A DNA stretch of 35,148 nt from Chthoniobacterales bacterium (lineage in GTDB: Bacteria; Verrucomicrobiota; Verrucomicrobiia; Chthoniobacterales; JACTMZ01). Shown one piece after another: positions 1,017 through 24,142 of the stretch (position 1 is the stretch's first letter; the number at the start of each line of letters is the position of its first letter). Under the pieces are notes generated by a model, which was given only the letters and a program-made list of their open reading frames with translations, searched no databases and was not told where the DNA came from. A program made the translations under genes and the position numbers. Location: assembly GCA_014879535.1 (NCBI GenBank), contig JACSRX010000052.1, positions 122,334 to 157,481 of the forward strand, given 5' to 3'.

Positions 1017-4000
1017 CTACTCCACCACCACGCGGTAGAATTTGATCCCCGGATTGAACGGCTCGGTGTGCTGCCCCCCGGTGATCCCGGTTGCCGCGTC
1101 GGACCATGAGCCGGAGGCAAGACTTCCGCGCGACTGGATCTTGTAGGTGCGTCCGGGCACCGCATCCCAGGTGATCACCACGTTCGCACCCGAGCGGTTC
1201 ACCACGGCACGCAGCACGGAGGCGGGGGACAGCGGATCGGTTCCGGCCAGCAGCTCCGCGGCATTCTTCATGCCGTCGCCATCATGGTCCCCGGCGGCGG
1301 AGAGCGAGAACACCGGCGCACTGACGGGCGACGTCGCCGCCGTCTTGGACTGGTCGTTCGGATTGGCGGACGTGACGGTGAACGTGTAGGACGCGCCTTC
1401 GGGAAGGTCCTCGATCTCCAAGGATGTCGAGGTGGTGGTGATGGTGTGGATCACATTGCCCTGCGCATTCCGGATGGCGACCTGGTAAACCGGAACCAGC
1501 CCCGCGGGATCGGCCACCGGACTCCAGGACACCGAAACCGCGCCATTCACGGTGACGGGAACCGAAACACCCGGCGCGCCCGCGACCGCCGGCGGCGTGG
1601 TCACGTCGTAAACGCGGAGATACTGCGCCTCGAAGGGTGCAAACCCCCACGCCTCGTCCGTGCCGGGCACGGGGAACATGGAGACCGGGACGCCGCTGGC
1701 GACAATCTGTTCGCGCGTGCGGCCCTCACTGCCCCACTGGAAGGTGTCACGCCGCGTCGGATATTCGTTGTCCGGGCCGAGATACGCGGAGATGTTGCGG
1801 ACATTGTAATGGCGCCCGCTCGCCAACCCCAGCAGGTCGGCCAAGGTCCCGCTGATGCCGAAAGTGTTCGTCCGCTGCAGGGTCTGGTCGAGATTGACGA
1901 ATGCCAGCACCACGTCGGACGTCGCCGGAGGCGCCCCGGCGGCCTCGTATTTCGCCACCGCGAAGATGTTCGGATCGGGCTCGCCGCTGCCGACGGGATT
2001 GAGGAACCAGCGGTTCGACGAGCGCAGGGCCTTGCTGGACTCGCGCGCCTTGCCGACCCCGGAATAGGCTGGGAACAGGTTGCGTGCCCCGAAGCTGTTG
2101 GTTCCCCATGCGGTCCATTGGGGCTGCATCGAGTTCCAGCGTTTGAAGTGCGGGATCCATTTCCCGAAATTCAACTCGTAGTTGTCGAAACTCAGCAGGT
2201 CGGATGTCCCGATTTCCTGCCCATACATGATCATCGGCGCCCCGTCGATCGTTCCGCCGACGGCATGGCGGATGAACGCCTGCCACGGATCGGCGTAACC
2301 CGCCTCGTCATGCGAGGTGTTGTTGAGCAGCACCAGCCCCTGGCCGTAGGCCGCGCGCCGGTCCTCGAATATCTGGCGGTGCATCGCCGTGTTCGTGGCG
2401 GACTGCCAGGGGAAGACGATGTTCTCGTTGAGCACGTCGAAATGGCGGTTGGAACGGTAGGTCACCGCCCCGCCGTCGAGGGATTCGGTCATGAACACGA
2501 AGCTCCATTTGTGCGAGCGCGCAACATTGATGCAATACTCCCAGAACTGCGGGGGCATGCCCTGGCCGAAGTCGGCACGCAGCCCGTCGATGCCCTTGGT
2601 GGTCTGTTCCACAAGCGTGCTCCCTGCAGGAAGGCCGGTTTGCTCCAGCCAATAAGGCACGTAGGACGCAAAATACCGCCAGACGGCGCGGGTGACGGCG
2701 CCGGCGGAGTTCGGGCCGCCGGTGAGGTCGTCCGTGTTCAGCCAGTCGCCCTCATTCTGCACGGTGGCGCGGCTGGTATCCGCATCGGGATTGCCGATGA
2801 CCAATGTGGCGTAGCGGCCGAAGAACACATCATAGACGTCATACCACTTGCCGAAGTCGTTGCGGTCTGGCGCGATGGCGATGTTCCCCGACGAGCTGGC
2901 CGGACCCGAGTAGGCCAGGCTGCCGTCGTTGCGCGAGAAGAAGCGCGCCTCGCGGTTGCGCATCTCGTCGGTCGCGGACCACCCGGCGGTGTTCACGCCC
3001 GCCGCCCCGAGCAGTGCGAGGCCGACGGACGACACCTCGACATCATGCGAGGTGTGGTTGAACGGCGCGTCGAGCATGACGTTCACACCCTCGGCATCGG
3101 CGACCTGCACGAACTGCTGGAAGGCGGCCATCGAGGCGGCGCGGTTCGCCGCGATGGCGTTGGTGCCGCTGTAGTTCGTGGTCATGAGTTCATTGACCTC
3201 GAAGAAGTTCTTCACGGCGTAGGGCGAACCCGGATCGTAGGGCGGGGTGTTGGTGCTGCCCCATCCCCCGGAGGGCTCGCGACCCGAAATGCCGTTCGGG
3301 TGGATCGGCTGGAACCAGAGGGTGTTCGCCCCGAGGTTCTTCAGCCAAGTGAGGCTCCACCGGGTGTTGTCCGTGAGGCTCTCAAGCGTGCTGCGCTGCG
3401 CAAACGTCGGCCCGGAGGCGTCCACGTTGAATACGTTGATCTCATACACGCGCATGTCGCGGGACGTCTTCGGGGCGACGGTGATGCAATGGTCGCGGTT
3501 GCCCGAGGATCCATACCAACGCCAGGCGCTGTCGCCGCTCACGCGATAACGGGCGGAGAGACGGTAAGCCCCGGTCTTGGTCGCGGGAAGGGTCAGCGTG
3601 TAGTTGCCTCCGCCGGCGGACGTCATCGGAACCGCCTGGAAGTAACCGTCTGCCGGATACGGTCCGGACACATACCCGGGTGGCTTTTCATTCGGCGCCG
3701 GGGGGCCGAGGATGCCGTCGTGGATGCCATCCCCGTTGGCATCGAGCCCGGCACGGTCGCGGTTGTTGAGATTCGTCCAGATTTCGGCCTCCACGGCATT
3801 CGTGGCGCCCGTTTGAAGCGTGATGGTGACGGGGATGGAATCCGCCGCCACCTCATCCACATAAAGTTTGCTCGTCGTGTAGTTGGCGTTGAGGGTGCCG
3901 GTCGAAGGTGTGCCCACCGTGAGCGTCATGCCCGACACGAACGAAAACGGCGTGGCTTGGGCCGTGGACTCGGTGAGCGTCGTCCCGTTGTTGTGAAGGA

Positions 4001-4415
4001 ACGTGGTGGATTGGTTGCTGAACGTGACCCGGAAGTAATACTGCATCGTGCGCCCGCCGTCGGGCGCGGCCACGGTCGCCTTCCAGAACTGGTTGTCGCC
4101 GCTGTTTGCATGGAAGGTCAATGGCACTGACAGCCATGTGCCGCTTGTGCCGTATCGGTAATGAAACGTTCCATCGGCAGTCTGGTTGTTCGCCCCGCTG
4201 TTGCGCCAGACGCCCTGATAGAACGTCGTGCTCTGCCCGAATGTCGGCGACACCGGATCGCGCATGGGGATGTTGCCCGGCACCTCGGAATAGCTCCCGG
4301 GGATGTGCCACAACGCGCTCACCTGGGCCCAAGCGGCGGAGGGAAGAACTGCAACCAGAATCAAGGCCGCCAAAGCGGATCGCAAAGCGCGGGAAATCGG
4401 GGGGCAACACATCAT
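1017..4415 (-). CDS. Secreted GH13 alpha-amylase family protein with FN3 and DxDGDG C-terminus
   Basis: This is a secreted alpha-glucan-active enzyme of family GH13. The chosen start (double ATG, 4415/4412) gives a classical signal peptide with arginines, a LAALILVAVL core and an AWA cleavage site. Further in-frame starts at 4445 and 4499 would only add residues, and 4499 would place an inverted repeat inside the gene. Counted from the chosen start, all four GH13 regions are present: region I DAPFNH (D near 449), region II GLRADF (nucleophile D near 615), region III TESLDG (acid/base E near 644) and region IV SHDE (D near 703). An N-terminal beta domain precedes the barrel. After it come a fibronectin III-like domain, a DHDGDGMKN calcium-binding loop and a small beta domain. 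It is clearly paralogous to the C-terminal half of the enzyme encoded just upstream and is probably co-transcribed with it. Exact linkage specificity cannot be read from the sequence. Confidence 0.88.
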   Translation of the reverse strand: MMCCPPISRALRSALAALILVAVLPSAAWAQVSALWHIPGSYSEVPGNIPMRDPVSPTFGQSTTFYQGVWRNSGANNQTADGTFHYRYGTSGTWLSVPLTFHANSGDNQFWKATVAAPDGGRTMQYYFRVTFSNQSTTFLHNNGTTLTESTAQATPFSFVSGMTLTVGTPSTGTLNANYTTSKLYVDEVAADSIPVTITLQTGATNAVEAEIWTNLNNRDRAGLDANGDGIHDGILGPPAPNEKPPGYVSGPYPADGYFQAVPMTSAGGGNYTLTLPATKTGAYRLSARYRVSGDSAWRWYGSSGNRDHCITVAPKTSRDMRVYEINVFNVDASGPTFAQRSTLESLTDNTRWSLTWLKNLGANTLWFQPIHPNGISGREPSGGWGSTNTPPYDPGSPYAVKNFFEVNELMTTNYSGTNAIAANRAASMAAFQQFVQVADAEGVNVMLDAPFNHTSHDVEVSSVGLALLGAAGVNTAGWSATDEMRNREARFFSRNDGSLAYSGPASSSGNIAIAPDRNDFGKWYDVYDVFFGRYATLVIGNPDADTSRATVQNEGDWLNTDDLTGGPNSAGAVTRAVWRYFASYVPYWLEQTGLPAGSTLVEQTTKGIDGLRADFGQGMPPQFWEYCINVARSHKWSFVFMTESLDGGAVTYRSNRHFDVLNENIVFPWQSATNTAMHRQIFEDRRAAYGQGLVLLNNTSHDEAGYADPWQAFIRHAVGGTIDGAPMIMYGQEIGTSDLLSFDNYELNFGKWIPHFKRWNSMQPQWTAWGTNSFGARNLFPAYSGVGKARESSKALRSSNRWFLNPVGSGEPDPNIFAVAKYEAAGAPPATSDVVLAFVNLDQTLQRTNTFGISGTLADLLGLASGRHYNVRNISAYLGPDNEYPTRRDTFQWGSEGRTREQIVASGVPVSMFPVPGTDEAWGFAPFEAQYLRVYDVTTPPAVAGAPGVSVPVTVNGAVSVSWSPVADPAGLVPVYQVAIRNAQGNVIHTITTTSTSLEIEDLPEGASYTFTVTSANPNDQSKTAATSPVSAPVFSLSAAGDHDGDGMKNAAELLAGTDPLSPASVLRAVVNRSGANVVITWDAVPGRTYKIQSRGSLASGSWSDAATGITGGQHTEPFNPGIKFYRVVVE

Positions 4416-4469
4416 AAGGAAAGTCGCCGTCCAAGCGGCGTGCATCAATGTATCGACACTTTCGGGGCC

Positions 4470-4497
4470 GCGCCCGTTCAAAACGACGAACGGGCGC
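4470..4497. repeat. Perfect 10-bp inverted repeat between the two GH13 genes
   Basis: The arms GCGCCCGTTC and GAACGGGCGC are perfectly complementary and separated by 8 bases. The element lies 23 bp past the stop of the giant amylase and about 55 bp before the preferred start of the next gene, all on the minus strand. No run of T follows on that strand, so it is not a standard intrinsic terminator. A hairpin that stabilises the mRNA or a processing site between the two cistrons fits better. Confidence 0.6.
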
Positions 4498-4520
4498 AAA
4501 CCCCGGTTTTCGGCCCCAAA

Positions 4521-7500
4521 CTACGGGACCAAAGTGACTGTGTAGAAGGCCTTTGTGACTTCCGGCGGGGTGGCGATGGAGATCTCCGTCTCGGCCGAGT
4601 CCGCCGAAATCATCCCACCATTCACGTCAGACCAACCCGAACCCAGGTCGTAGGAGTAGCGCACCTTGTAGATGGCCCCCGGAACGCTCTTCCAACGCAG
4701 GGTCATGCTGCCCGCATCGGGTGCGAACTCAAGGACGCGCAGGGCGGAGCTCCGGTCGTCGGCCTTGGACCCGGCCATGAACTCGACGTAGTTCGAATAG
4801 CCGTCCCCGTCGTTGTCGGCCCCGGCGCCATCCGCACCGGCCGTGGACCGGGGATTCATGCCGTTGGCCTCCTCATACCAGTTCGGGATGCCGTCCCCGT
4901 CGATGTCGTCATCGACCATGTCGTAGATGCCGTCGCCGTCGAGGTCGGGGTAGGCCGCGGGATCCTGGTCCACAAGGCGCAGGTAGTGCGCGTGGTAGGA
5001 CGCCGAATTGGTCGTCGGCTTGTAGGGGAGTCCGACATAGAACCCGTTGTCGAGGATGTCCGCGCCCGTGCGGTTGGTGCTCCACACATTGTTGGTCGGC
5101 GTGTCGGAGAGGAGATCCTTGATGTTGTAGGTCTTGCCGCGCTCGATGCCGAAATAGTTCGCACTGCTGTTCGGCGCAAGGGCGTTGAGATCGAACACGT
5201 CGGCGATGTTGGTCTGCGACCGGTAGTTGTTGTTCACGAAGACCAGCATCACATCCTGCTGCCCGGCGGAAAGCCCGGGTTGCTGGACCTTGCCCACGGC
5301 GAACATCCCGGCGTTGAACCCGCCCCCGGCGGCCTTCTTGTTGAGGAAGTAGACGTTCTGGCTCTGGAGCGCGGGTGACTTCTTCCGTGCGTCGTTGACG
5401 CGACCGTAGAAGCTCTGCAGTGTCCAGTCGCGGGTGGCGCCGTTCCAGATGTTCGTCATGTGGTTGTAAACCTTGAAGTTCGGGATGTTCTTCCCGAAGT
5501 TCACCTCGTATTTGGCGAAGTTGCGGTTGGTGCTGATCGCGCCGAAGTTCGTCTCGCTCGCCCCGTAGCCCGTCTTGCTGTTCTGCGCGCCGGCCTCCTG
5601 CCCGTAGAAGAGCATGGGAATCCCGTCGAGCGAGCCGACCTGCGCGTAGGCATAGGCGAGGCTGAAGACGTCGTTGTGGGGGAACACCTCGTCGTGGCTG
5701 ACCAGGTTGTTGAGCAGCGTGATGTTGTCGAACGCCTGGCGCCGGGTGTCGTAGGCGTTGAAGGTTCCGCCCGTGCTCGGGGTCGCCGGGGTGCCCGCCC
5801 CGCCATTGGCCGGGTAGCCGAAGAAGCTGTCGCGCCAGTAGAAGACGATGTTCTCGTTGAGCACGTCGAAGTGGCGCGCCGAGCGGTAACCGACACCGTG
5901 GCGCCTGCTGCCCGCGACCTCGCGGAAGCCGTCGAGCGACTCCGCCATGAAGAGGAAGTCCCACTTCACGCTGCGGGTCTTGTTGATGCAATACTCCCAG
6001 AACTGCGAGGGAAGCCCTTGGGCGAAGTCGCAGCGCAGGCCGTCGATGCCTTTGTAGGACTGCTCCTTCGGCGTGCCGCGCGGATGCCCGGTCTTCTCGA
6101 GCCAGTAGATCGGGTAATGGGCGAAGTATTCCCAGACCTGCCGCGTCTGGGCGGTGTGGCCGGAAAACTCGTCACGCTCGAGCAGGAATGCCTGCTTGTA
6201 GGCATTGTCGGGGTAGGATTTGTCCAGGTTCTGCGGCCCCTTGGCCTTGACCAGGGTGTCGTAGTCGCCGAAGAAGAACTCGCGGACATCCGTCCAGTTG
6301 CCGAAGTCGTTGCGGTCGGGCGCGATGGCGATTTCACCGAGGGTCGCGGCGGCCTGCCCGGGGAAGCCTTCCTTGGCATACCAACGGGTGTCGAAGTTGC
6401 GGATCTGCGTCGAGGGGGTCCCCGTGAGACCGAGATCCACGGCGCCCTGACCCATGATGGCATCCGGTGCGCTGTGGTTGAAGGTGCCATCCATCATGAC
6501 GCCGACACCCCAATCGTCGAGGCGGCTGACAAACGTCTGGAACTCCGCCATGGCGGTGGCGGCGCTGGTTCCGGCGCCGCGGCCGAGCATGGGCGCCACC
6601 GACCAGTAATCCTGGACCGCGTAGGGGCTGCCGGGATCGAAGGGCGCGCTGGTCTCGGGATTGACATCGCGACCCTCGACGCCGATCGGGTGGATCGGCT
6701 GGAGCCAGAGCATGTTGATGCCGACACCGCTGTAGTGATGCTTGTTCAGGGCGTCCGGACGCCCGTCGTAGCCGCCGCTCTCGCCCGGGAGATCGGGATC
6801 GTTCACAAGGTCGAGGAACGTGCTGCGGCCGGCGAAGGTCGTGTTCTTGGCTTCGACGACGAGCGGATTGACCTCATACATGTTGGATTGGAGGGCCTTC
6901 TTCGGCGAAACGACGATGGCGCAATCGCGGCGCTGGGCGTTGTCCGTGTAGTAGATGTAGTTGCCGCCATTGACCTTGTAGCGGGCCTGCAGGCGGTAGG
7001 CACCGCACCGGTTGACCGGAAGGGTCACGGTGTAGAAGCCGTTGGCATCGGGGCCGGTCATCGGGTAGGCACGGTAATACGTGTCGGCGCTGGCGGTCGT
7101 GACCGTGGAGGGGTCCTCCTCGAGCACCGCGAAGTCGCGGCGGTTGAGGTTGGTGAACGCCTCGACGTTCGAGACGATCGCGCCGGGCGACGTGTTCGGT
7201 TTGAACTTGACTGTGATCTCCGCGGTGTCCTTGAGCAGCTCGTCGATGTAGAACCGGCGGAGGCCGTAATTGGCATCAGCCTCATTCTCGCCGACCACAG
7301 TCCCGAGGTAGGGCGCCCCGACGTCGAAGATACCGTCGAGATTCTCGTCGCGGATGGAGGCCGTGCTCACGGGTTGGAACTCGGTGATGTTGACATCATC
7401 CCCCCCGTCCCAAACCGCGGGCGCCTGGGACAGGATGCTTCCGCCATCGGCGCGCGGGTAGGCGATGGTTGAGAAGTAGAGGACGCGCGGGACGGAACCG

Positions 7501-10500
7501 AACACCTGGACGAGGTCGAGCTCGGTTTCGAGCGCCTTGCCGGCGGCACCCATCGTGCTCTTGCCCGCAGCGCCGAAATTGTTGCGGTATTCGTTGGTGG
7601 GGTTGGCCCCGACCCACGGCTTGCTCTGGGCCGTGAAGTCGAACTTGCCGTAAACCTTGCCGGCCTTGGCCCAGGGATGGTTGAGCGGATCACCGAACGC
7701 GTCGGTGATGAAGAGGAAGTGGTCGTTGTTGCCGCCTTTCGTGGACCACGTCGCGGTGTAGAGCTTGGTTCCGCGGATGGCCGCATAGACACGCATGCCG
7801 TTGTCGGCGACGAGGAAGTTCTGGCTGTCAAACTCGCCGTCCATGTTGAACCCGGGCGACGTCGAGGCCACCCAGTTGGCACCTCCCGTGGTGTCGTTGG
7901 TGGCCCCCGAGGTGAAGTTGAACGACACCGAGGTGGCCCCCGGGGGAATCGTGTAGGTGTAGCTGAACGAACCGTTGCCAAGCGGGGTCATCGCGAAACT
8001 CGCGGGTGATCCGCCGCCGGCCGGCGTGAGGTTGACCGTCACCCCCGACTGCCCGGCCAGCGGACCTTCGTTGGCGTTGTAAACAACGGTCAGGGTCAGC
8101 GCCTCGCCGTCCACCCCGAGGGTGGCGGTGGCCGAGGACGCCACAAGCGGCGTGGCGATGTTCCAGCTTCCGCCGCCGGTGGTGTCATTGACCGAGCCGT
8201 CGGCATTCGAGAACGAGTAGGCCACCGAGGTGACTCCGGACGGCACCGTGTAGGCGCAGGTGAACTGATTGCTGTTCACCGGGGTCATGGTGAAGAACTG
8301 CAGCGACCCGCCGCCGGTCGGCTGCACGCGCACGCGCACCGGCGTGATGCCCTTGAGCGGCCCGTCGTTCGGGTTGTAGGTGACCGTGACGGTCTTGACG
8401 CCGCCGACCGTCCCGAGCACGGCGGAAGCCACGGAAGCACTGCTGGCCGGCGGTGTGCTGTTGGCGTCGTAGATGTTGTAGCGGTAGGGATCGCCGGTGA
8501 GGCGGTAGCCGCGGATGACCTCCTGGAGGTTCGTCACCCCGTCGCCGTCCCAATCCTCGTCGCCGTCCCAGCTTCCGCTCGCGCCTGCGCGCTGGACGTA
8601 ATCCGTGTCGGCCGCCATCGGGTTGAGGCGCGTCCATGTCTCTCCGTAGTTCGGGATGAGGTCGTAGCTGTTGTCGCCGGGCCACTTCTGGTCGGGGCCA
8701 GGATTGGTGCCGTTGAGGAAGCCGGAAAGCTCGATCTCGTCGGGAATGCCGTCGCCATCGGAGTCGTGCAGGTTCTGCCCGAAGAGGTTGAACACGACCT
8801 TGCGGGCGACACGGTTTTCCTGGCCGCTCTTGGTCACAACGGCCTCGAAGAAATGCGGTCCGTTGACGAAGGCCCCGGTGAACTGGCGCGTCACGCCGTC
8901 CATGACGTAGCGCCCGTCGAAGGTGGACTCGAAGTTGCCGTTGCCCGCATCGACGAGCGGGGGTTGCTCGTAGCCGTTCCAATAGAGCTTGATGTCGGAC
9001 GCGGTGATCCCCTGCCCGGTCGGCACGGTCACGATCGTCTTGAAGAACGGCTCGGAGATGGTGACACCGTTGGCGTGGTTCATGGCGATCGCCTGCCCGG
9101 CGGTGTCCACGGTGAAGTTGCGCGTGAGCGTGGAGGTGTTGATGACCGCACGCGTGCTCCCGTAGTCGGCCTCGGTGGCGTTGAGCGTGATGCTGTGGGC
9201 GCCTGCGGAGAGTCCGTCGAGATTGATGCGCCACTTGCCCTTGATGACCATGTCGGCCTGCTGCGAGGCGCCGCCGTCAACCGTGTAGGTCAGGTTGTAA
9301 AGCGTGCGGTCGGGGTTGTTGACCGTGAGCACGCGCGCGCCCTCGATGGTGGCGCCCTCGTTGAGGTTCTCGAACTGGAGGTCGGGACCGCTGCGGTCCA
9401 CGTAGACCGTCTCGGAAAATGTCTGGAACAACGCAGGCTTGCCCGAGCGGCCGTTGAAGACGCGGGCCTTGATGTTGTGCAGGCCCTCGGGGACGTTGGT
9501 CAGGTCGGCCACGAGACGCCAATGGCCCGGGGCGATCTGCACGGCCTGCTCGAAGCCGCCCGTCACGACGTCCTTGCCGTTGAAGTCGATGCCGGCGTTG
9601 CCGTTGACGTTGCGACCCTGTCCCCACTTGACGAGGACGTTGTCCACATTCTCGCCGTTCTGGTTCGGTCCGGCATTTGAAAAATGGACGTCGATCTGCA
9701 CGGAATTGCCCGTGAGGCGCACGAGGTTTCTCACCGGTTTCGCCGCGCCGTCGCGGCCGGCGGGGATGACCCAAGGCATCGTGGTGGCGCCCGCACCGTT
9801 GAATTGGAGGGGATCGACGCCGGACGGAGCCTCGGCATTGAAGGGCGCGTAGCACACCCATCCCTGGCCGCCACCGCCGGGCACCCTGATGTTGACCTTG
9901 CTGTCGGAGCCCACCGTCACGATGTCGGGATTGCGCCCGGAGTAGTCCTTGAGCTTCGTCCCGGGCGAGAAGGCGGTCTGGATGCCGTTGCGGGTCTGGT
10001 CGCTGCCGGAGTCGTTGAGCGCGACGAGGATGAGCCCCTCGCCGGCGTTCGGGCTGTTGTTGCTGTTGAGGTCGTCGTAGCGCTCGTAGGCGAAGAAATC
10101 ATTCTCGGTCCAGCGCGTCCACTCCTTGCCTCGGCAGAACTGGTTGTGGATGTAGATGAGGTTCGGGATGGCGCCGGTCTGGAAGCCGTTGACCGTGTCA
10201 CCGAGGGCGTAGTCGTAGCCCTTCTCCATCCACGTGTTCTTGCCCTGCTGGCGCCCGATCTCGGACTGCTTGAGGTTGTTGCCGGAGAAATACACGACCG
10301 GCACACCCATCCGCGTGAGGATGTAGGCGTAGGCGAGTTCGAGCTTGTTCGGCGGACCCTCGTCGTGGCTGTGCGCGAACATCACCCCCTCGGTCGGATC
10401 GAATCCCGAAAACCCGGCGAGTGCGCCGAGGTTCCCGTTGTTGAAGGCGTCCTGCATCATCCCCTTCTTGCGCGGGAAATCGAGGTAGCGGGTCTGGATG

Positions 10501-11507
10501 CCCCAGTTGCGGTCGGACGGACTGCGCCAGTAGTCCACTTCGCCGATGCCGCCGATGAAGAACTCGGAATACACCATCGCGTCATCCCGGCGGATGTCAT
10601 TCGCATACATGTCGTCAAACGGGTTCGAATCGCTGAACCCGCGGCGTTCATTGAAGTTCTTCTGGATGTTGTAGATGAAGGTCTGGTCGCGCAGGGACTG
10701 TGTCTGGTTCGGCAGGCCGAAAAAGTCCTTGTAAACGTGCTTCGGCGCATCGAGACGCACACCATCGTAGTCCATGGCGTAACCCAGCCAGTTGATCCAG
10801 CGGACGATGAACTGGCGCGAATTCTCCGCCGGGAGCGTGCCGGTCGGGTTGTAGGGATACTTGTCGCGATCCCCGGGGTGACGGATGAACGGTGTCGGAT
10901 CCGCCGCAAACCCCTGCGAGGAGGATCCGCCAACTTGGAATCTGTTGTCAAATTCCAGAACGATGTCCATCAAACTCACCAACTCCTGATAAAGCGTCCC
11001 TCCCGTGCCGTTGTTCGCATCCCACTGGAACATGCGGGGCGGACGGCGGTAGCCACCGGGTTGGCTTCCGTCGATCGTGATGTGGAAATCCTGGGGGTGC
11101 ATCCCCGGATAGGTTCGGAAGTCCGGTCCGTTGCCCGTGTGGTTGAAGACGATGTCGGGATAGATCTTGATGTCGTTCTGGTGGGCATTGTCCACGAGGT
11201 TGCGCAAAGAGGTGCGCGACCCGTAGCGTGTCTCCCAATTCCCGCGTTGCGGCATGTCACCCAAGTCAAAGCGGTCGAAGGAGTTATAACCGACGTTTCC
11301 TCCATAGGCGAAGGGGTAAGGGCCGCCGATCGGGGACTTTCCGGGGGGGGGAGTCCAGATGGATTCGTAGCCGGTTTCCGCGATCTCCGGCAGACGTTGA
11401 TACATCTCGTCCCACCGGGTTTCAAAATATTGGATGACGACTTCGGCGCGAGCGCTGGGGCAGAGGAGAAGACCGGCAACGAGGAGGAGGGGGCGCAATC
11501 TGGACAT
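4521..11507 (-). CDS. Giant secreted amylase with two complete GH13 catalytic domains
   Basis: A 2328-residue secreted enzyme with signal peptide (cleavage near residue 21). The first GH13 barrel spans about 25-550: region I DIVFNH (118-123), nucleophile D253 in RLDAPKH, acid/base E315 in YSEFF, and D382 in HSHDE. Ig-like modules follow (about 590-910), then calcium-binding loops DSDGDGIPDE (about 915) and DWDGDG (about 986). Next are two tandem beta modules resembling CBM25/26 starch-binding domains (about 1020-1120 and 1120-1215), and a beta region (about 1215-1390) that may also bind carbohydrate. A second GH13 domain has D1673 (DGTFNH), nucleophile D1827 (GLRCDF), E1856 (AESLDG) and D1939 (SHDE). 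The C-terminus carries DLDGDGI, DIDGDGI and DNDGDGY loops. Both active sites look intact, as in dual amylase-pullulanases. No Shine-Dalgarno is visible: the ATG directly follows a C-run. The domain names of the middle modules are inferred from pattern only. Confidence 0.9.
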   Translation of the reverse strand: MSRLRPLLLVAGLLLCPSARAEVVIQYFETRWDEMYQRLPEIAETGYESIWTPPPGKSPIGGPYPFAYGGNVGYNSFDRFDLGDMPQRGNWETRYGSRTSLRNLVDNAHQNDIKIYPDIVFNHTGNGPDFRTYPGMHPQDFHITIDGSQPGGYRRPPRMFQWDANNGTGGTLYQELVSLMDIVLEFDNRFQVGGSSSQGFAADPTPFIRHPGDRDKYPYNPTGTLPAENSRQFIVRWINWLGYAMDYDGVRLDAPKHVYKDFFGLPNQTQSLRDQTFIYNIQKNFNERRGFSDSNPFDDMYANDIRRDDAMVYSEFFIGGIGEVDYWRSPSDRNWGIQTRYLDFPRKKGMMQDAFNNGNLGALAGFSGFDPTEGVMFAHSHDEGPPNKLELAYAYILTRMGVPVVYFSGNNLKQSEIGRQQGKNTWMEKGYDYALGDTVNGFQTGAIPNLIYIHNQFCRGKEWTRWTENDFFAYERYDDLNSNNSPNAGEGLILVALNDSGSDQTRNGIQTAFSPGTKLKDYSGRNPDIVTVGSDSKVNIRVPGGGGQGWVCYAPFNAEAPSGVDPLQFNGAGATTMPWVIPAGRDGAAKPVRNLVRLTGNSVQIDVHFSNAGPNQNGENVDNVLVKWGQGRNVNGNAGIDFNGKDVVTGGFEQAVQIAPGHWRLVADLTNVPEGLHNIKARVFNGRSGKPALFQTFSETVYVDRSGPDLQFENLNEGATIEGARVLTVNNPDRTLYNLTYTVDGGASQQADMVIKGKWRINLDGLSAGAHSITLNATEADYGSTRAVINTSTLTRNFTVDTAGQAIAMNHANGVTISEPFFKTIVTVPTGQGITASDIKLYWNGYEQPPLVDAGNGNFESTFDGRYVMDGVTRQFTGAFVNGPHFFEAVVTKSGQENRVARKVVFNLFGQNLHDSDGDGIPDEIELSGFLNGTNPGPDQKWPGDNSYDLIPNYGETWTRLNPMAADTDYVQRAGASGSWDGDEDWDGDGVTNLQEVIRGYRLTGDPYRYNIYDANSTPPASSASVASAVLGTVGGVKTVTVTYNPNDGPLKGITPVRVRVQPTGGGSLQFFTMTPVNSNQFTCAYTVPSGVTSVAYSFSNADGSVNDTTGGGSWNIATPLVASSATATLGVDGEALTLTVVYNANEGPLAGQSGVTVNLTPAGGGSPASFAMTPLGNGSFSYTYTIPPGATSVSFNFTSGATNDTTGGANWVASTSPGFNMDGEFDSQNFLVADNGMRVYAAIRGTKLYTATWSTKGGNNDHFLFITDAFGDPLNHPWAKAGKVYGKFDFTAQSKPWVGANPTNEYRNNFGAAGKSTMGAAGKALETELDLVQVFGSVPRVLYFSTIAYPRADGGSILSQAPAVWDGGDDVNITEFQPVSTASIRDENLDGIFDVGAPYLGTVVGENEADANYGLRRFYIDELLKDTAEITVKFKPNTSPGAIVSNVEAFTNLNRRDFAVLEEDPSTVTTASADTYYRAYPMTGPDANGFYTVTLPVNRCGAYRLQARYKVNGGNYIYYTDNAQRRDCAIVVSPKKALQSNMYEVNPLVVEAKNTTFAGRSTFLDLVNDPDLPGESGGYDGRPDALNKHHYSGVGINMLWLQPIHPIGVEGRDVNPETSAPFDPGSPYAVQDYWSVAPMLGRGAGTSAATAMAEFQTFVSRLDDWGVGVMMDGTFNHSAPDAIMGQGAVDLGLTGTPSTQIRNFDTRWYAKEGFPGQAAATLGEIAIAPDRNDFGNWTDVREFFFGDYDTLVKAKGPQNLDKSYPDNAYKQAFLLERDEFSGHTAQTRQVWEYFAHYPIYWLEKTGHPRGTPKEQSYKGIDGLRCDFAQGLPSQFWEYCINKTRSVKWDFLFMAESLDGFREVAGSRRHGVGYRSARHFDVLNENIVFYWRDSFFGYPANGGAGTPATPSTGGTFNAYDTRRQAFDNITLLNNLVSHDEVFPHNDVFSLAYAYAQVGSLDGIPMLFYGQEAGAQNSKTGYGASETNFGAISTNRNFAKYEVNFGKNIPNFKVYNHMTNIWNGATRDWTLQSFYGRVNDARKKSPALQSQNVYFLNKKAAGGGFNAGMFAVGKVQQPGLSAGQQDVMLVFVNNNYRSQTNIADVFDLNALAPNSSANYFGIERGKTYNIKDLLSDTPTNNVWSTNRTGADILDNGFYVGLPYKPTTNSASYHAHYLRLVDQDPAAYPDLDGDGIYDMVDDDIDGDGIPNWYEEANGMNPRSTAGADGAGADNDGDGYSNYVEFMAGSKADDRSSALRVLEFAPDAGSMTLRWKSVPGAIYKVRYSYDLGSGWSDVNGGMISADSAETEISIATPPEVTKAFYTVTLVP

Positions 11508-15161: not shown

Positions 15162-15920
15162 ATGAACACCTCATCCAAACTCGGCGGCAAGGCCGCCATC
15201 GTCACCGGAGCCTCCAAGGGCATCGGCGCCGCCATCGCCACGCAACTCGCCGCGGACGGCGCGTCCGTCGTGGTCAACTACGCCTCCGACCGCGCGGGCG
15301 CGGACAGGGTGGTGTCCGCGATCACCGCCGCGGGCGGCAAGGCCGTGACCGTGCAGGCCGATTTGTCAAAGAAGGCTGACATCGGCCGCCTTTTCGACGA
15401 GGCAGTGAAGGCTTTCGGGCGTCTGGACATCCTGGTCAACAATGCGGGGGTCTACGAGTTTGCCCCGATCGAAGACGTGACCGAGGAGCACTTCCACCGG
15501 CAGTTCAACATCAACGTTCTCGGCCTCCTTCTCGCCACCCGGCAGGCGGCGGCGCGTTTCGGTCCGGAGGGCGGGAGCGTGATCAACATCGGCTCCATCG
15601 CGGGCACCTCCGCGCCCCCCGCCGCCTCGGTTTACAGCGGCACCAAGGCCGCGGTGAATGCCATCACCCGTTCGCTCGCCCAGGAACTCGGACCGCGCAA
15701 GATCCGCGTGAACGCGGTCAACCCCGGCATGGTCATCACGGAAGGGGTCGTATCGTCCGGCATCGGGGAGAGCGACTTCCGGAAGCAGATCGAGTCACAG
15801 ACCCCGCTCGGCCGCATCGGCCAACCGGAGGATGTCGCGGCCCTCGTGGCCTTCCTCGCCTCCGGGGAGGCGTCCTGGATCACCGGGGAAACCCACCACA
15901 TCTCCGGCGGCTACCGCTGA
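15162..15920 (+). CDS. Short-chain dehydrogenase/reductase (SDR), FabG-like
   Basis: A 252-residue classical SDR oxidoreductase. The NAD(P)-binding motif TGASKGIG is at 15-22, the NNAG motif at 93-96, and the catalytic residues are S145 (in INIGSIAG), Y158 and K162 (YSGTK). The C-terminus PLGRIGQPEDVAALVAFLAS and the closing ISGGYR are typical of cytoplasmic tetrameric FabG-like SDRs. Length and motifs are complete, but the substrate cannot be assigned. TetR-linked SDRs of this type often reduce aldehydes, ketones or quinones. The gene is divergent from a TetR regulator and carries an operator-like site just upstream of its start. It is probably monocistronic: the following gene is convergent, with a 10-bp overlap of the 3' ends. 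Confidence 0.92.
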   Translation: MNTSSKLGGKAAIVTGASKGIGAAIATQLAADGASVVVNYASDRAGADRVVSAITAAGGKAVTVQADLSKKADIGRLFDEAVKAFGRLDILVNNAGVYEFAPIEDVTEEHFHRQFNINVLGLLLATRQAAARFGPEGGSVINIGSIAGTSAPPAASVYSGTKAAVNAITRSLAQELGPRKIRVNAVNPGMVITEGVVSSGIGESDFRKQIESQTPLGRIGQPEDVAALVAFLASGEASWITGETHHISGGYR

Positions 15921-17857
15921 GCGTTGCCCGCCCCTTCGACGGTCCAATCCCCCGCCCCGGGCAAGGTCGTCGCCGCGATCTCGTGCGCGGCCTCCCCGGC
16001 GGGGACGTCGAAGGTGACAGCGCGACCGCGGTGGTGGATCTCGAGCGTGAAGGGTTCCCTGCTGCGGGTCTCGAGCACAATCCGTCCGCCGGGCCCCGGG
16101 GTGGCGAGGAGATCGACGGAACGTCCGCGGAACGGGAGGTTCCTGATGCCATGGCGGTCGGAGCGCGTGATGGTCCAGACGATGCGGTTGTCTGCGCCGC
16201 GCAGGTCAAGGCCGAGGATGTTCTCGTAAAGCATGGCGATGGGGCCGAGTCCGGTCCATCCGACGAAATCCTGCCGCGAGAGGAGGATTCCATCCCATCG
16301 CGTGGCGGGCCCGCCTCCCTCCGGGGCGTAGCATTCCCAGAGCGTGTGGTAGCCGTCCTCGAACCGCTGCTCGTAGGCGAGTTCATCCGTTTCCGGCTCG
16401 TAGTCGCGGAAGATCCGGGCGATGTGAGCGACGTGGTTTTCGGCGATGGCCCGGGCGAGTTCCCCCCGGCCTGTCTCCGCGAGTCCTCGCGTGATCATGT
16501 AGTTGACGGGTGCCCAGACTCCGCCCAGCCAATAATGGCCTCGCGGCGAATAGCGAGAATCGTCAGCGGAGAGGGTGGGAACAAGGTGCGGACGCCAGAA
16601 CCACGCGGGATTGCGCAGGGCCTCGAGGAGGCCATCGCTCCCGGGCTCATCCGCCGCGCCGGCAAGCAACGTCCAGAAGGCGCCGGCATGCTTGACCGGG
16701 CTCAGTTTCCCGCCGGTGGTGCGGTCATGGAAGAACCGCGTGTCGGGGTTCCAGCAGGCTTCGCGGAGGCGACCGGCAATCTCCCCGTGTCTGGCGTTGA
16801 AGCGCTCCTCAAGTTCCTTGTCACCCGTGACCCCGGCGAGCCGCGCGATGCAGCGCGCGGCGAGGGCCTGCTGCGCCGAGGCATCCACCCATGCGCCTTG
16901 GCGGACATCCGGACGCGGAGTGTTGTCCATCCCGCTCCCGAGGTCGGTCTGGTAGTAGAGCCCGGGAACGGACGGCGAGCGCGTGTTGTTTTCGAGCCAT
17001 TCGAAGTAGCGGACGAGATGGGGCAACACGCGGTTGATGCGCGAGGCGTCGCCGGTGGTTTCGTAATAGCGCCACTCGACCCATGCGAAGAGGGGCGGAT
17101 TGATCATCGGTTCCTCCGCGGTGGGCTCCTTGGCGGGTTTGCCGTCGCGCTCCCAGTAAACACGCTGGATGTAGCCGTCGTCGCGCTGCTTGCCGTAGAA
17201 GTTGTCCAGTGAGGCCATGCCGGGAAACGCACCCTGCGGGGCATACACGGCGAAGAGCGCCATGAAGCAGGTGTCCCACTGGTAGATCAACTCGTTGAAG
17301 GCCTCGTCCATGTAACGCGGGGCGAACCCGTTCCCCGGTGTCCCGTGCTGGATCTTGCTCCAGGCGATGCGCCACGCGGCATCATGCGCGGCCACCCAAT
17401 CGGGATCCGCGTCGAGGATCACACGGGGCACGCAATCCGCGGGGAACGGTTCGGGATTCCTCCGGCGTTGCGGCGTCCCCGGATCGCCGGCGCGCAGCAC
17501 GGAATTGAAGCTGTCGCCGCCGTCGGGAATGCGCTCAGGGTTCCCCGGATCGGGAATCCATGTGTCGTGTCCGTCCTTGCGGACCACGAACTTGTAGTAA
17601 TACCACCCCGGTTCGAGGGGAACGGTGGCGGACCAGATGCCGTCATGACGCTCGAGCGGATGCGCCCCGGCATCCCAGTTGTTGAAGCTGCCGGCAACCG
17701 AGACCCTCTCCGCGTCCCTCTGCTCCATGCGGAATTCCACACCGACCGTGGCCCCCGCTCCCTGCGTCCCCCGCCCGGGAGAACACACGAACACCGAGGT
17801 CAGGAGGATCACCGCCCCGGAAAGGATCGCTGGGAACGGGAAATTGCATCGGGTCAT
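15911..17857 (-). CDS. Secreted (alpha/alpha)6 glycoside hydrolase (GH63/trehalase-like) with CBM48-like module
   Basis: A 648-residue exported protein. The signal sequence has a hydrophobic core at about 8-24. Residues about 34-125 form a CBM48/AMPK glycogen-binding-like module (RVSVAGSFNNWD, then WYYYKFVV). The catalytic part resembles the MGH/GH63/GH37 (alpha/alpha)6 clan: QWDTCFMALF with candidate acid D195, a WVEWRYYETTGD helix, HYWLGGVWAPVNYMITRGL, and GYHTLWECYAPEGG with candidate base E508. This suggests hydrolysis of alpha-glucosidic or alpha-mannosidic bonds in short or branched saccharides; the exact substrate is not readable. The start at 17857 has GAGG five bases upstream; longer in-frame starts would overlap the neighbouring gene. 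It shares polymer-degradation themes with the GH13 enzymes but sits in its own unit, convergent with the SDR gene. Confidence 0.82.
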   Translation of the reverse strand: MTRCNFPFPAILSGAVILLTSVFVCSPGRGTQGAGATVGVEFRMEQRDAERVSVAGSFNNWDAGAHPLERHDGIWSATVPLEPGWYYYKFVVRKDGHDTWIPDPGNPERIPDGGDSFNSVLRAGDPGTPQRRRNPEPFPADCVPRVILDADPDWVAAHDAAWRIAWSKIQHGTPGNGFAPRYMDEAFNELIYQWDTCFMALFAVYAPQGAFPGMASLDNFYGKQRDDGYIQRVYWERDGKPAKEPTAEEPMINPPLFAWVEWRYYETTGDASRINRVLPHLVRYFEWLENNTRSPSVPGLYYQTDLGSGMDNTPRPDVRQGAWVDASAQQALAARCIARLAGVTGDKELEERFNARHGEIAGRLREACWNPDTRFFHDRTTGGKLSPVKHAGAFWTLLAGAADEPGSDGLLEALRNPAWFWRPHLVPTLSADDSRYSPRGHYWLGGVWAPVNYMITRGLAETGRGELARAIAENHVAHIARIFRDYEPETDELAYEQRFEDGYHTLWECYAPEGGGPATRWDGILLSRQDFVGWTGLGPIAMLYENILGLDLRGADNRIVWTITRSDRHGIRNLPFRGRSVDLLATPGPGGRIVLETRSREPFTLEIHHRGRAVTFDVPAGEAAHEIAATTLPGAGDWTVEGAGNAQR

Positions 17858-18083
17858 GCTCGCCTCGAATCCTATCCTGCGCGCACTGCGCTGGTCACGT
17901 CCGGCTTCCACCATCCCCGTGAAGCACTCCTGCCGAACCGGCTCCATGCTCAGAGGCAACCGAATGTCACCGGCGCAACAGCAGCTCCGCGAGGTTGGAC
18001 TTCGATTTGCGCCCACGGCGCAAAGTTCCTGCGCGATGAGAAAACCATGGTTTGCTTCCCCACCGGCTTGGTAAAAGACGCCG

Positions 18084-18617
18084 ATGTCCGGTCGGAATGA
18101 ATCCGCGAGGAAGCGACGCCAAGCGGTGAGCTCGTTCCTCATCCTCCTGCCATTCACCCTCGTCTTTCTGGGGATGGCATTCGCGCTTGGGACCGAGCCG
18201 CGCATCCTCATGGAGCGGACAGGGGAACAGACGTTCCGCGTGACCGGCTCGAACCAGATTTTCGGTTTCCGATTCTATACCAAGACCATCGGGGGCGTGG
18301 ACCGTGTCCAACTCGCCACCGCCGCGCGCAACGATCGGACCGAAAGCATCCAAGAGCGTCAGAGACGACTGGACCAGGTGCGCCTCGACTTCATGGCGAC
18401 CGACGGGTCGCGGCTGAGTTGGGGCCGCGAGGGGGACTCGCGCATGATCGATGACTTCATGCGCAGCAACGCCCCGATCCTGCAGCTTGTGGAGCCCCCG
18501 CCGTGGTGGCGAACCGGGTTGACGTGGCTCTGCCTCGTCCTTGCGGTGCTCATCTTCACCGGCACGATCCGGAACTGCTTTTTTGCGAAGCCCACCGGCT
18601 TCTCTGCGGTTCGCTGA
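18084..18617 (+). CDS. Small membrane protein of unknown function
   Basis: This gene is not recognised. The 177-residue product has an N-terminal charged stretch rich in Arg/Lys, a first transmembrane segment (about 16-36), a hydrophilic middle of roughly 110 residues, and a second transmembrane segment (about 148-166). The topology is therefore two helices with an extracytoplasmic loop. The loop contains a moderately charged region (RNDRTESIQERQRRLDQ) likely to be helical. Codon use is like the neighbours and the frame is clean. It lies 226 bp from the divergent glycosidase and 113 bp upstream of the L,D-transpeptidase gene on the same strand, so co-transcription with the latter is possible. 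No clear Shine-Dalgarno is seen. Confidence 0.65.
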   Translation: MSGRNESARKRRQAVSSFLILLPFTLVFLGMAFALGTEPRILMERTGEQTFRVTGSNQIFGFRFYTKTIGGVDRVQLATAARNDRTESIQERQRRLDQVRLDFMATDGSRLSWGREGDSRMIDDFMRSNAPILQLVEPPPWWRTGLTWLCLVLAVLIFTGTIRNCFFAKPTGFSAVR

Positions 18618-23350: not shown

Positions 23351-24142
23351 CTAATTCCGAGGACTCCTTGAAACATTTCTTATCCGGGTGAGTCGCGCCG
23401 AAGCAGTCAACGCGCCTGCAATTGCGATTAAGGTTACCACAGACGGCTCTGGAACTACTGTGATGGTGGCAGTTCCGTGAAGTTTGTCCGGCACAAGGCG
23501 CCCGACGGTATCCGTCACACTGATCCCGTCAATTACCTCGGGAGGCAGATAGTTGCTTCCCCCTCGGCCGTTGAACAGGCCCTCAGCCCCACCGTAATAG
23601 CCGCCACCTCCACCACCCTTCCAAGAATCGGACCCCACACCCAAGGTCGTGTTGAAGGGGCCGAAATTGCCTCCGCCACCGCCGTAACCAAGCGCTGAAC
23701 TGGCACCACCGCCTCCACCGGCTACGGCGATTCGATCCAACAAATCACCAACTCCGCCACGCAAATCGGTCGCCCCACCTCCGCCGCTGCTACTGCCAAC
23801 TGAGCCAGCGCCCCCTCCATTATAGCCACCTAATGCGGTCGTATTGGAATCATCCCCAAAGCCACCCACCACGATGTAGAGCGTCGATCCCGGAAGAACG
23901 GGAAGAATCCCACTTACCGACCCACCATATCCGCCATAAACGGTGTAGCTTCCGAACGCGTTCCCACCTGTGGCACCAGTGAGGGTGAAGGAAATATGAG
24001 TAACGTCAAGCGGCACGACCCAGGTTTGCACTGCTCCAGTGAAATTGAATGTCGTTGTCTGCGCCAAGGCCGCGCCGGTTCCGCAAGTAAGAAGCGCTGA
24101 TGCACTGATTATCGCTGCGATGTATCGGGTGTGTCGTTTCAT
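23351..24142 (-). CDS. Glycine-rich PEP-CTERM secreted protein
   Basis: A 263-residue exported protein. The signal peptide (hydrophobic core IIAAIISASALLTC region, cleavage after ALA near 27) is followed by a TTTFNFTGAVQTWVVPLDVT segment typical of the beta-sandwich start of glycine-rich surface domains. A long glycine-rich domain (about 50-200) contains GGYNGGGAGS, GGGGATDLR, VAGGGGGAS and GGGGGGYYGG stretches. A PEP-CTERM tail follows: VPEPSVVTLIAIAGAL, then an arginine-containing end. Gly-rich domains with GGGGATD and VAGGGGG motifs occur in surface-exposed structural proteins. The C-terminal tail directs exosortase-dependent sorting. No Shine-Dalgarno is seen. A small gene follows 4 bp later. 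The gene is somewhat AT-richer than its neighbours, consistent with an accessory origin. Confidence 0.82.
   Translation of the reverse strand: MKRHTRYIAAIISASALLTCGTGAALAQTTTFNFTGAVQTWVVPLDVTHISFTLTGATGGNAFGSYTVYGGYGGSVSGILPVLPGSTLYIVVGGFGDDSNTTALGGYNGGGAGSVGSSSGGGGATDLRGGVGDLLDRIAVAGGGGGASSALGYGGGGGNFGPFNTTLGVGSDSWKGGGGGGYYGGAEGLFNGRGGSNYLPPEVIDGISVTDTVGRLVPDKLHGTATITVVPEPSVVTLIAIAGALTASARLTRIRNVSRSPRN

Follow-up and report, generated by a model that had tools for sequence, protein, structure and literature searches.

A probably secreted protein with two GH13 domains on one chain in a Chthoniobacterales bacterium

The fused gene and its surroundings

The stretch of DNA analysed here, referred to as the window, comprises 35,148 nucleotides from a Chthoniobacterales bacterium. 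On its minus strand lies a gene (4521..11507) that runs from an ATG at 11507 to a TAG ending at 4521 and encodes 2328 amino acids with no internal stop. The product is a two-barrel GH13 protein that is probably secreted, judging from a signal-peptide-like start: residues 1-21 (MSRLRPLLLVAGLLLCPSARA; 11445..11507, minus strand), read from the sequence by eye, form a likely signal peptide. On the whole protein, the Pfam model PF00128 scores 44.9 bits against a cut-off of 22, with its best stretch in the N-terminal barrel (half 1). An initial annotation had proposed one polypeptide with two GH13 domains, each keeping all three catalytic carboxylates. Both points hold, as a single frame spans the two domains and the six residues lie at the positions given earlier and are conserved among homologues: D253, E315 and D382 in half 1 (motifs VRLDAPKH, VYSEFF and FAHSHDE), and D1827, E1856 and D1939 in the C-terminal barrel, half 2 (GLRCDF, FMAESLDG and LVSHDE).

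Two trivial origins of this arrangement were considered and rejected. Chance or an annotation artefact is ruled out by sequence conservation and by the existence of homologues of both halves, and an assembly artefact joining two genes is ruled out because independent genomes share the identical fusion at ~70% identity.

All segments of the protein are encoded on the minus strand. Half 1 (residues 22-560; 9828..11444) consists of a GH13 barrel with domains B and C, and matches PDB 1mwo. It is followed by a beta-rich linker region to which no family could be assigned (residues 561-910; 8778..9827), but which is conserved in fused relatives, and then by an Asp-rich, TSP3-like segment (residues 911-1020; 8448..8777). 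Next come two tandem beta modules related to CBM53/25 (residues 1021-1119 and 1120-1215; 7863..8447) and a beta-sandwich-like module (residues 1216-1400; 7308..7862), which is present in fused relatives and gave no match to Pfam or to PDB sequences. Half 2 (residues 1401-2185; 4953..7307) combines an N-terminal beta domain, a GH13 barrel and a C domain; it matches 4gkl and falls in a clade beside GH13_48/49. The C-terminal tail (residues 2186-2328; 4524..4952) has Asp-rich repeats and a beta domain. Many other proteins of the genome carry this tail, which suggests a general-purpose sorting or surface module, and it is not conserved in the orthologues L038, L039 and L060.

The starch-binding-like modules and calcium loops that had been proposed to lie between the barrels are partly borne out. 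The first were right in kind: in relative L071 the corresponding module clearly scores as CBM53 (41.6 bits against a cut-off of 27.6), and in L064 it matches CBM56, but the window's own copy is a sub-threshold match to CBM53 (15.7 bits). Similarly, calcium-loop-like D.D.DG loops of the TSP3 type are present at residues 915 and 983, but PF18884 matches them weakly (17.8 bits against 25).

The next gene (1017..4445, minus strand) encodes a single-barrel paralogue of half 2 with fn3 and TSP3 domains, 43% identical to half 2. Its likely start is an ATG near 4445, although the longest frame opens with a TTG at 4499. The gap between the two genes contains a perfect 10-base inverted repeat, GCGCCCGTTC...GAACGGGCGC (window 4460-4500), without a T run. 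Elsewhere in the window, a 766-aa protein (15911-18211, minus strand) with a CBM48 and an MGH1/GH63/trehalase-like domain is possibly another alpha-glucan enzyme, and a 263-aa frame (23351-24142, minus strand) includes a glycine-rich domain matching PF12810 (ALK_LTK_GRD).

The host genome (3.17 Mb) as a whole is heavily invested in alpha-glucan enzymes, and 24 PF00128 matches were found in ~20 reading frames. Among the products are two giants of 2868 and 2847 aa, encoded on C75 (L051:1043-9646) and C64 (L052:7963-16503), each with an N-terminal GH13 domain of the half-1 type. The C75 giant has a GH57-like domain near its C-terminus (PF03065, 27 bits), as do similar proteins of relatives, and thus unites two amylase families on one chain.

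Two barrels predicted to be complete

AlphaFold models were built from alignments of the window and related-locus sequences for residues 21-1215, covering half 1 (pLDDT 84.5, pTM 0.82), and for residues 1216-2328, covering half 2 (pLDDT 90.3, pTM 0.90). In both models, strands beta1 to beta8 are all present and the triad sits at or just past the ends of beta4, beta5 and beta7. The initial annotation had named an incomplete barrel among the outcomes that would speak against two active sites; since eight strands are predicted in each half, structure prediction gives no such outcome. Both halves can also be aligned with complete GH13 crystal structures over most of their length, in line with two complete sites, and the completeness of both barrels is therefore supported at the level of predicted models.

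For half 1, the closest folds are the alpha-amylases 1mwo and 1vjs (Z ~22). The Pyrococcus woesei enzyme 1mwo aligns over 382 of 434 residues (Z 22.0, rmsd 2.6), and the first matches of the sequence profile are 3bc9, 1mwo and Bacillus alpha-amylases. Half 1 has the (beta/alpha)8 barrel and the Asp/Glu/Asp of CSR-II, III and IV that define GH13; D382 is invariant among its homologues (44 rows), and conservation reaches at least 90% at D253 and E315. Judged by these profile and fold matches, half 1 resembles the liquefying alpha-amylases of GH13_5/6/7. It differs from them in forming a separate clade in the set of sequences compared, in being joined to a second barrel, and in scoring up to 144.9 bits with the NCBIfam PRK09441 models, far under the equivalog cut-off of 516.

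Half 2 is more divergent. On its own it reaches 21.0 bits with the Pfam GH13 model, just under the 22-bit cut-off, but it has the (beta/alpha)8 barrel and the triad that define the family. Its alignment with 4gkl, the maltogenic amylase of Thermotoga neapolitana, covers 414 of 419 residues (Z 24.4, rmsd 3.0), and in a 77-row alignment of half-2 homologues D1827, E1856 and D1939 (A4 D612, E641 and D724) are invariant.

This divergence, together with the SHD that replaces the usual NHD before the third Asp in both halves, could be taken to mean that one barrel has degenerated into a pseudoenzyme that binds carbohydrate and only looks like an active site. Such a loss of function is very improbable. 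For both halves, the homologues compared retain the three carboxylates, and SHD is found in GH13_48-like proteins too. Moreover, dN is equally low in the two halves: against the orthologues L038, L039 and L060 it amounts to 0.18-0.19 for half 1 and 0.19-0.20 for the half-2 barrel, at dS values of 0.8 to 2.2, which are near saturation. Purifying selection is equally strong on the two halves.

A different question is what half 2 does with its active site. The best Foldseek matches are structures of GlgE (GH13_3; 5cgm, 3zss), with which the N-terminal beta domain and the barrel together align over ~540-550 residues (Z ~24.5), and GH13 includes many transferases. Half 2 could accordingly be imagined as mainly a transglycosylase, either a GlgE-like maltosyltransferase or a glucanotransferase, in a protein that remodels glucans rather than degrading them. 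However, the rmsd over the whole GlgE alignment is ~7, and VIA-align does not separate GlgE, neopullulanase-type enzymes and 4gkl by Z value (all ~24). Half 2 also lacks R.DNPH, the GlgE-type CSR-II motif, and the signal-peptide-like start fits poorly with the GlgE donor, maltose-1-phosphate, being cytosolic. Taken with these points, a mainly transferring half 2 appears improbable, and hydrolysis is the preferred reading for both barrels. Identity between half 2 and its structural matches is only ~16-22%, too low for them to indicate its bond or product specificity.

The subfamily of half 2

The sequence profile of half 2 finds 4gkl and 3dhu first; isoamylases match it weakly (E 5e-7 to 7e-6). 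Both 4gkl and 3dhu are representatives of GH13_48, and members of GH13_48/49 include the T. neapolitana maltogenic amylase (4gkl) and the Haloarcula japonica alpha-amylase (PMC11239784). Half 2 shares with these subfamilies the overall fold of 4gkl and two sequence marks. The first, a Cys just before the nucleophile (GLRCDF), is present in the window and in all fused relatives; most half-2 proteins of a second clade (clade II) have Ala instead. The second is the GQ that closes CSR-VII (GIPMLFYGQ).

The marks that separate the subfamilies are missing. The L-[DN] that closes CSR-V in GH13_48 is absent, with WTDVREFFF in half 2 against WTDVIQLDF in a GH13_48-like row, although this mark is not absolute, as 3 to 4 of 10 GH13_48-like rows carry F-D in its place. 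GH13_49 is characterised by [WY][GA] closing CSR-II, Asp before the acid/base and Glu in CSR-IV (PMC11239784); the corresponding residues in half 2 are QG, Ala and Val. The CSR-IV Glu position of GH13_38, as given in the same source, is likewise Val.

A tree was calculated from half 2, GH13_48-like proteins of the same phylum (chosen by motif, one of them checked against PDB 3dhu/4gkl) and other GH13 proteins of the genome and its relatives, without GH13_38 or GH13_49 rows. The half-2 clade (support 100/100) stands beside, and is not nested within, the GH13_48-like rows (100/99). Because its stem is long (1.53 changes per column), its exact placement is uncertain. The two halves of the protein fall in well-separated clades, which agrees with the earlier proposal that they belong to different subfamilies.

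Two assignments were rejected: GH13_48, for want of the L-[DN] of CSR-V and of nesting among GH13_48-like rows, and GH13_49, for want of all three subfamily-specific residues. On these sequence comparisons, the half-2 clade looks like an unassigned GH13 subfamily, with members so far identified in Verrucomicrobiota, Kiritimatiellota and Lentisphaerota.

The same evidence bears on an amylopullulanase-like division of labour, in which half 1 would cut alpha-1,4 bonds and half 2 would debranch at alpha-1,6. The protein does not contain YNWGYDP, the signature of type I pullulanases, and in the tree half 2 lies beside GH13_48-like rows, away from the GlgX row L151. Pullulanases are not among the top VIA-align rows for half 2, which excludes nothing. 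The isoamylase matches of the profile, though weak, would fit debranching, as would the report that PersiAmy1, a GH13_48 enzyme, hydrolyses pullulan (PMC11239784). There is also a precedent for the layout: in Bifidobacterium breve, the extracellular type II amylopullulanase ApuB carries two catalytic domains on one chain, the second of them a pullulanase (PMC11286577). The principle of two sites per chain is thus already known. In the protein described here, however, the second domain has no pullulanase motif and belongs to a PVC-group clade beside GH13_48/49, and a debranching half 2 is on balance unlikely.

Recurrence of the pairing

A scan of the genomes of 84,980 species found 195 places that encode half-2 relatives (about 200). 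Of these, 79 loci were kept, all but three assigned to Verrucomicrobiota, Kiritimatiellota or Lentisphaerota. Within the phylum, 34 of 288 sampled genomes had a half-2 match below 1e-50 (counted from the listing). Among the proteins sampled from the kept loci and from relatives found earlier, 27 carry half 1 on the same chain as half 2, with an identical order of linker modules, and they come from three phyla. The fusion is therefore no local oddity. All fused members belong to one clan of the half-2 tree (SH-aLRT 100), and at three places within that clan (L042, L062 and L066) half 1 has been swapped for a different GH13 barrel.

Where the halves are not fused, they are often neighbours. In clade II, 19 of 33 half-2 genes, one of them the window's own downstream gene, directly adjoin a gene that bears half 1, and five of these 19 neighbours also carry a GH57-like domain; the other 14 have no detected half-1 neighbour. 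In several relatives, genes adjoining the fused gene encode GH57, CBM53/CBM25, CBM48 and GH13 domains, including CBM48-GH13 proteins.

Further arrangements were observed. At L126, L128, L131, L133 and L046, a giant GH13+GH57 gene is followed directly by a stand-alone half-2 gene, and at L100:4241-22207 and G253:C78:12542-14749 the half-2 domain lies within open frames of at least 5989 and at least 8028 aa, respectively.

The initial annotation had suggested that the two halves have complementary activities. In view of the recurrent fusion or adjacency this is plausible, and the repeated pairing supports cooperative breakdown of alpha-glucans.

Proposed role and significance

The protein is best read as a secreted multidomain alpha-glucan hydrolase whose single chain bears two GH13 domains, each catalytically complete and from a different subfamily (probability roughly 0.7). 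Judging from the CBM modules of relatives and the genes that adjoin their fused genes, its substrate would most likely be starch or glycogen. Half 1, as an endo-acting alpha-amylase of the GH13_5/6/7 type, would make internal cuts in the polymer. Half 2 would then most likely trim or further cut the products to small malto-oligosaccharides fit for uptake; this role is suggested by the position of its clade beside GH13_48 (maltogenic, exo-acting) and the related GH13_38/49, and would probably take the form of maltogenic or alpha-glucosidase-like trimming. The CBM-like and Asp-rich modules between the barrels would probably anchor the enzyme to the polymer and set the distance between the barrels. 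Substrate, endo and exo roles, cooperation and the secretion of the fused protein are all inferred.

A more specific scenario can be offered tentatively. Half 2 might represent a new GH13 subfamily of the PVC group, distinct in its product or bond specificity, and the fusion might be a conserved enzyme working in two steps, the second barrel acting immediately on chains that the endo-acting barrel sets free. The N-terminal barrel would then have been exchanged at three places because only a general endo activity matters.

What sets the protein apart from ApuB is the subfamily of its second domain and its wide conservation in the PVC group. Open-access titles and abstracts yielded nothing relevant on a two-barrel amylase of Verrucomicrobia or on GH13+GH57 fusions, and an earlier description elsewhere is possible. 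A fusion kept across three phyla is thus absent from the open-access literature searched. The half-2 clade, a candidate for a new GH13 subfamily, has many members, among which no characterised one was found. The naturally occurring fused, neighbouring and swapped versions provide a ready test of whether joining amylase sites improves the breakdown of starch or glycogen.
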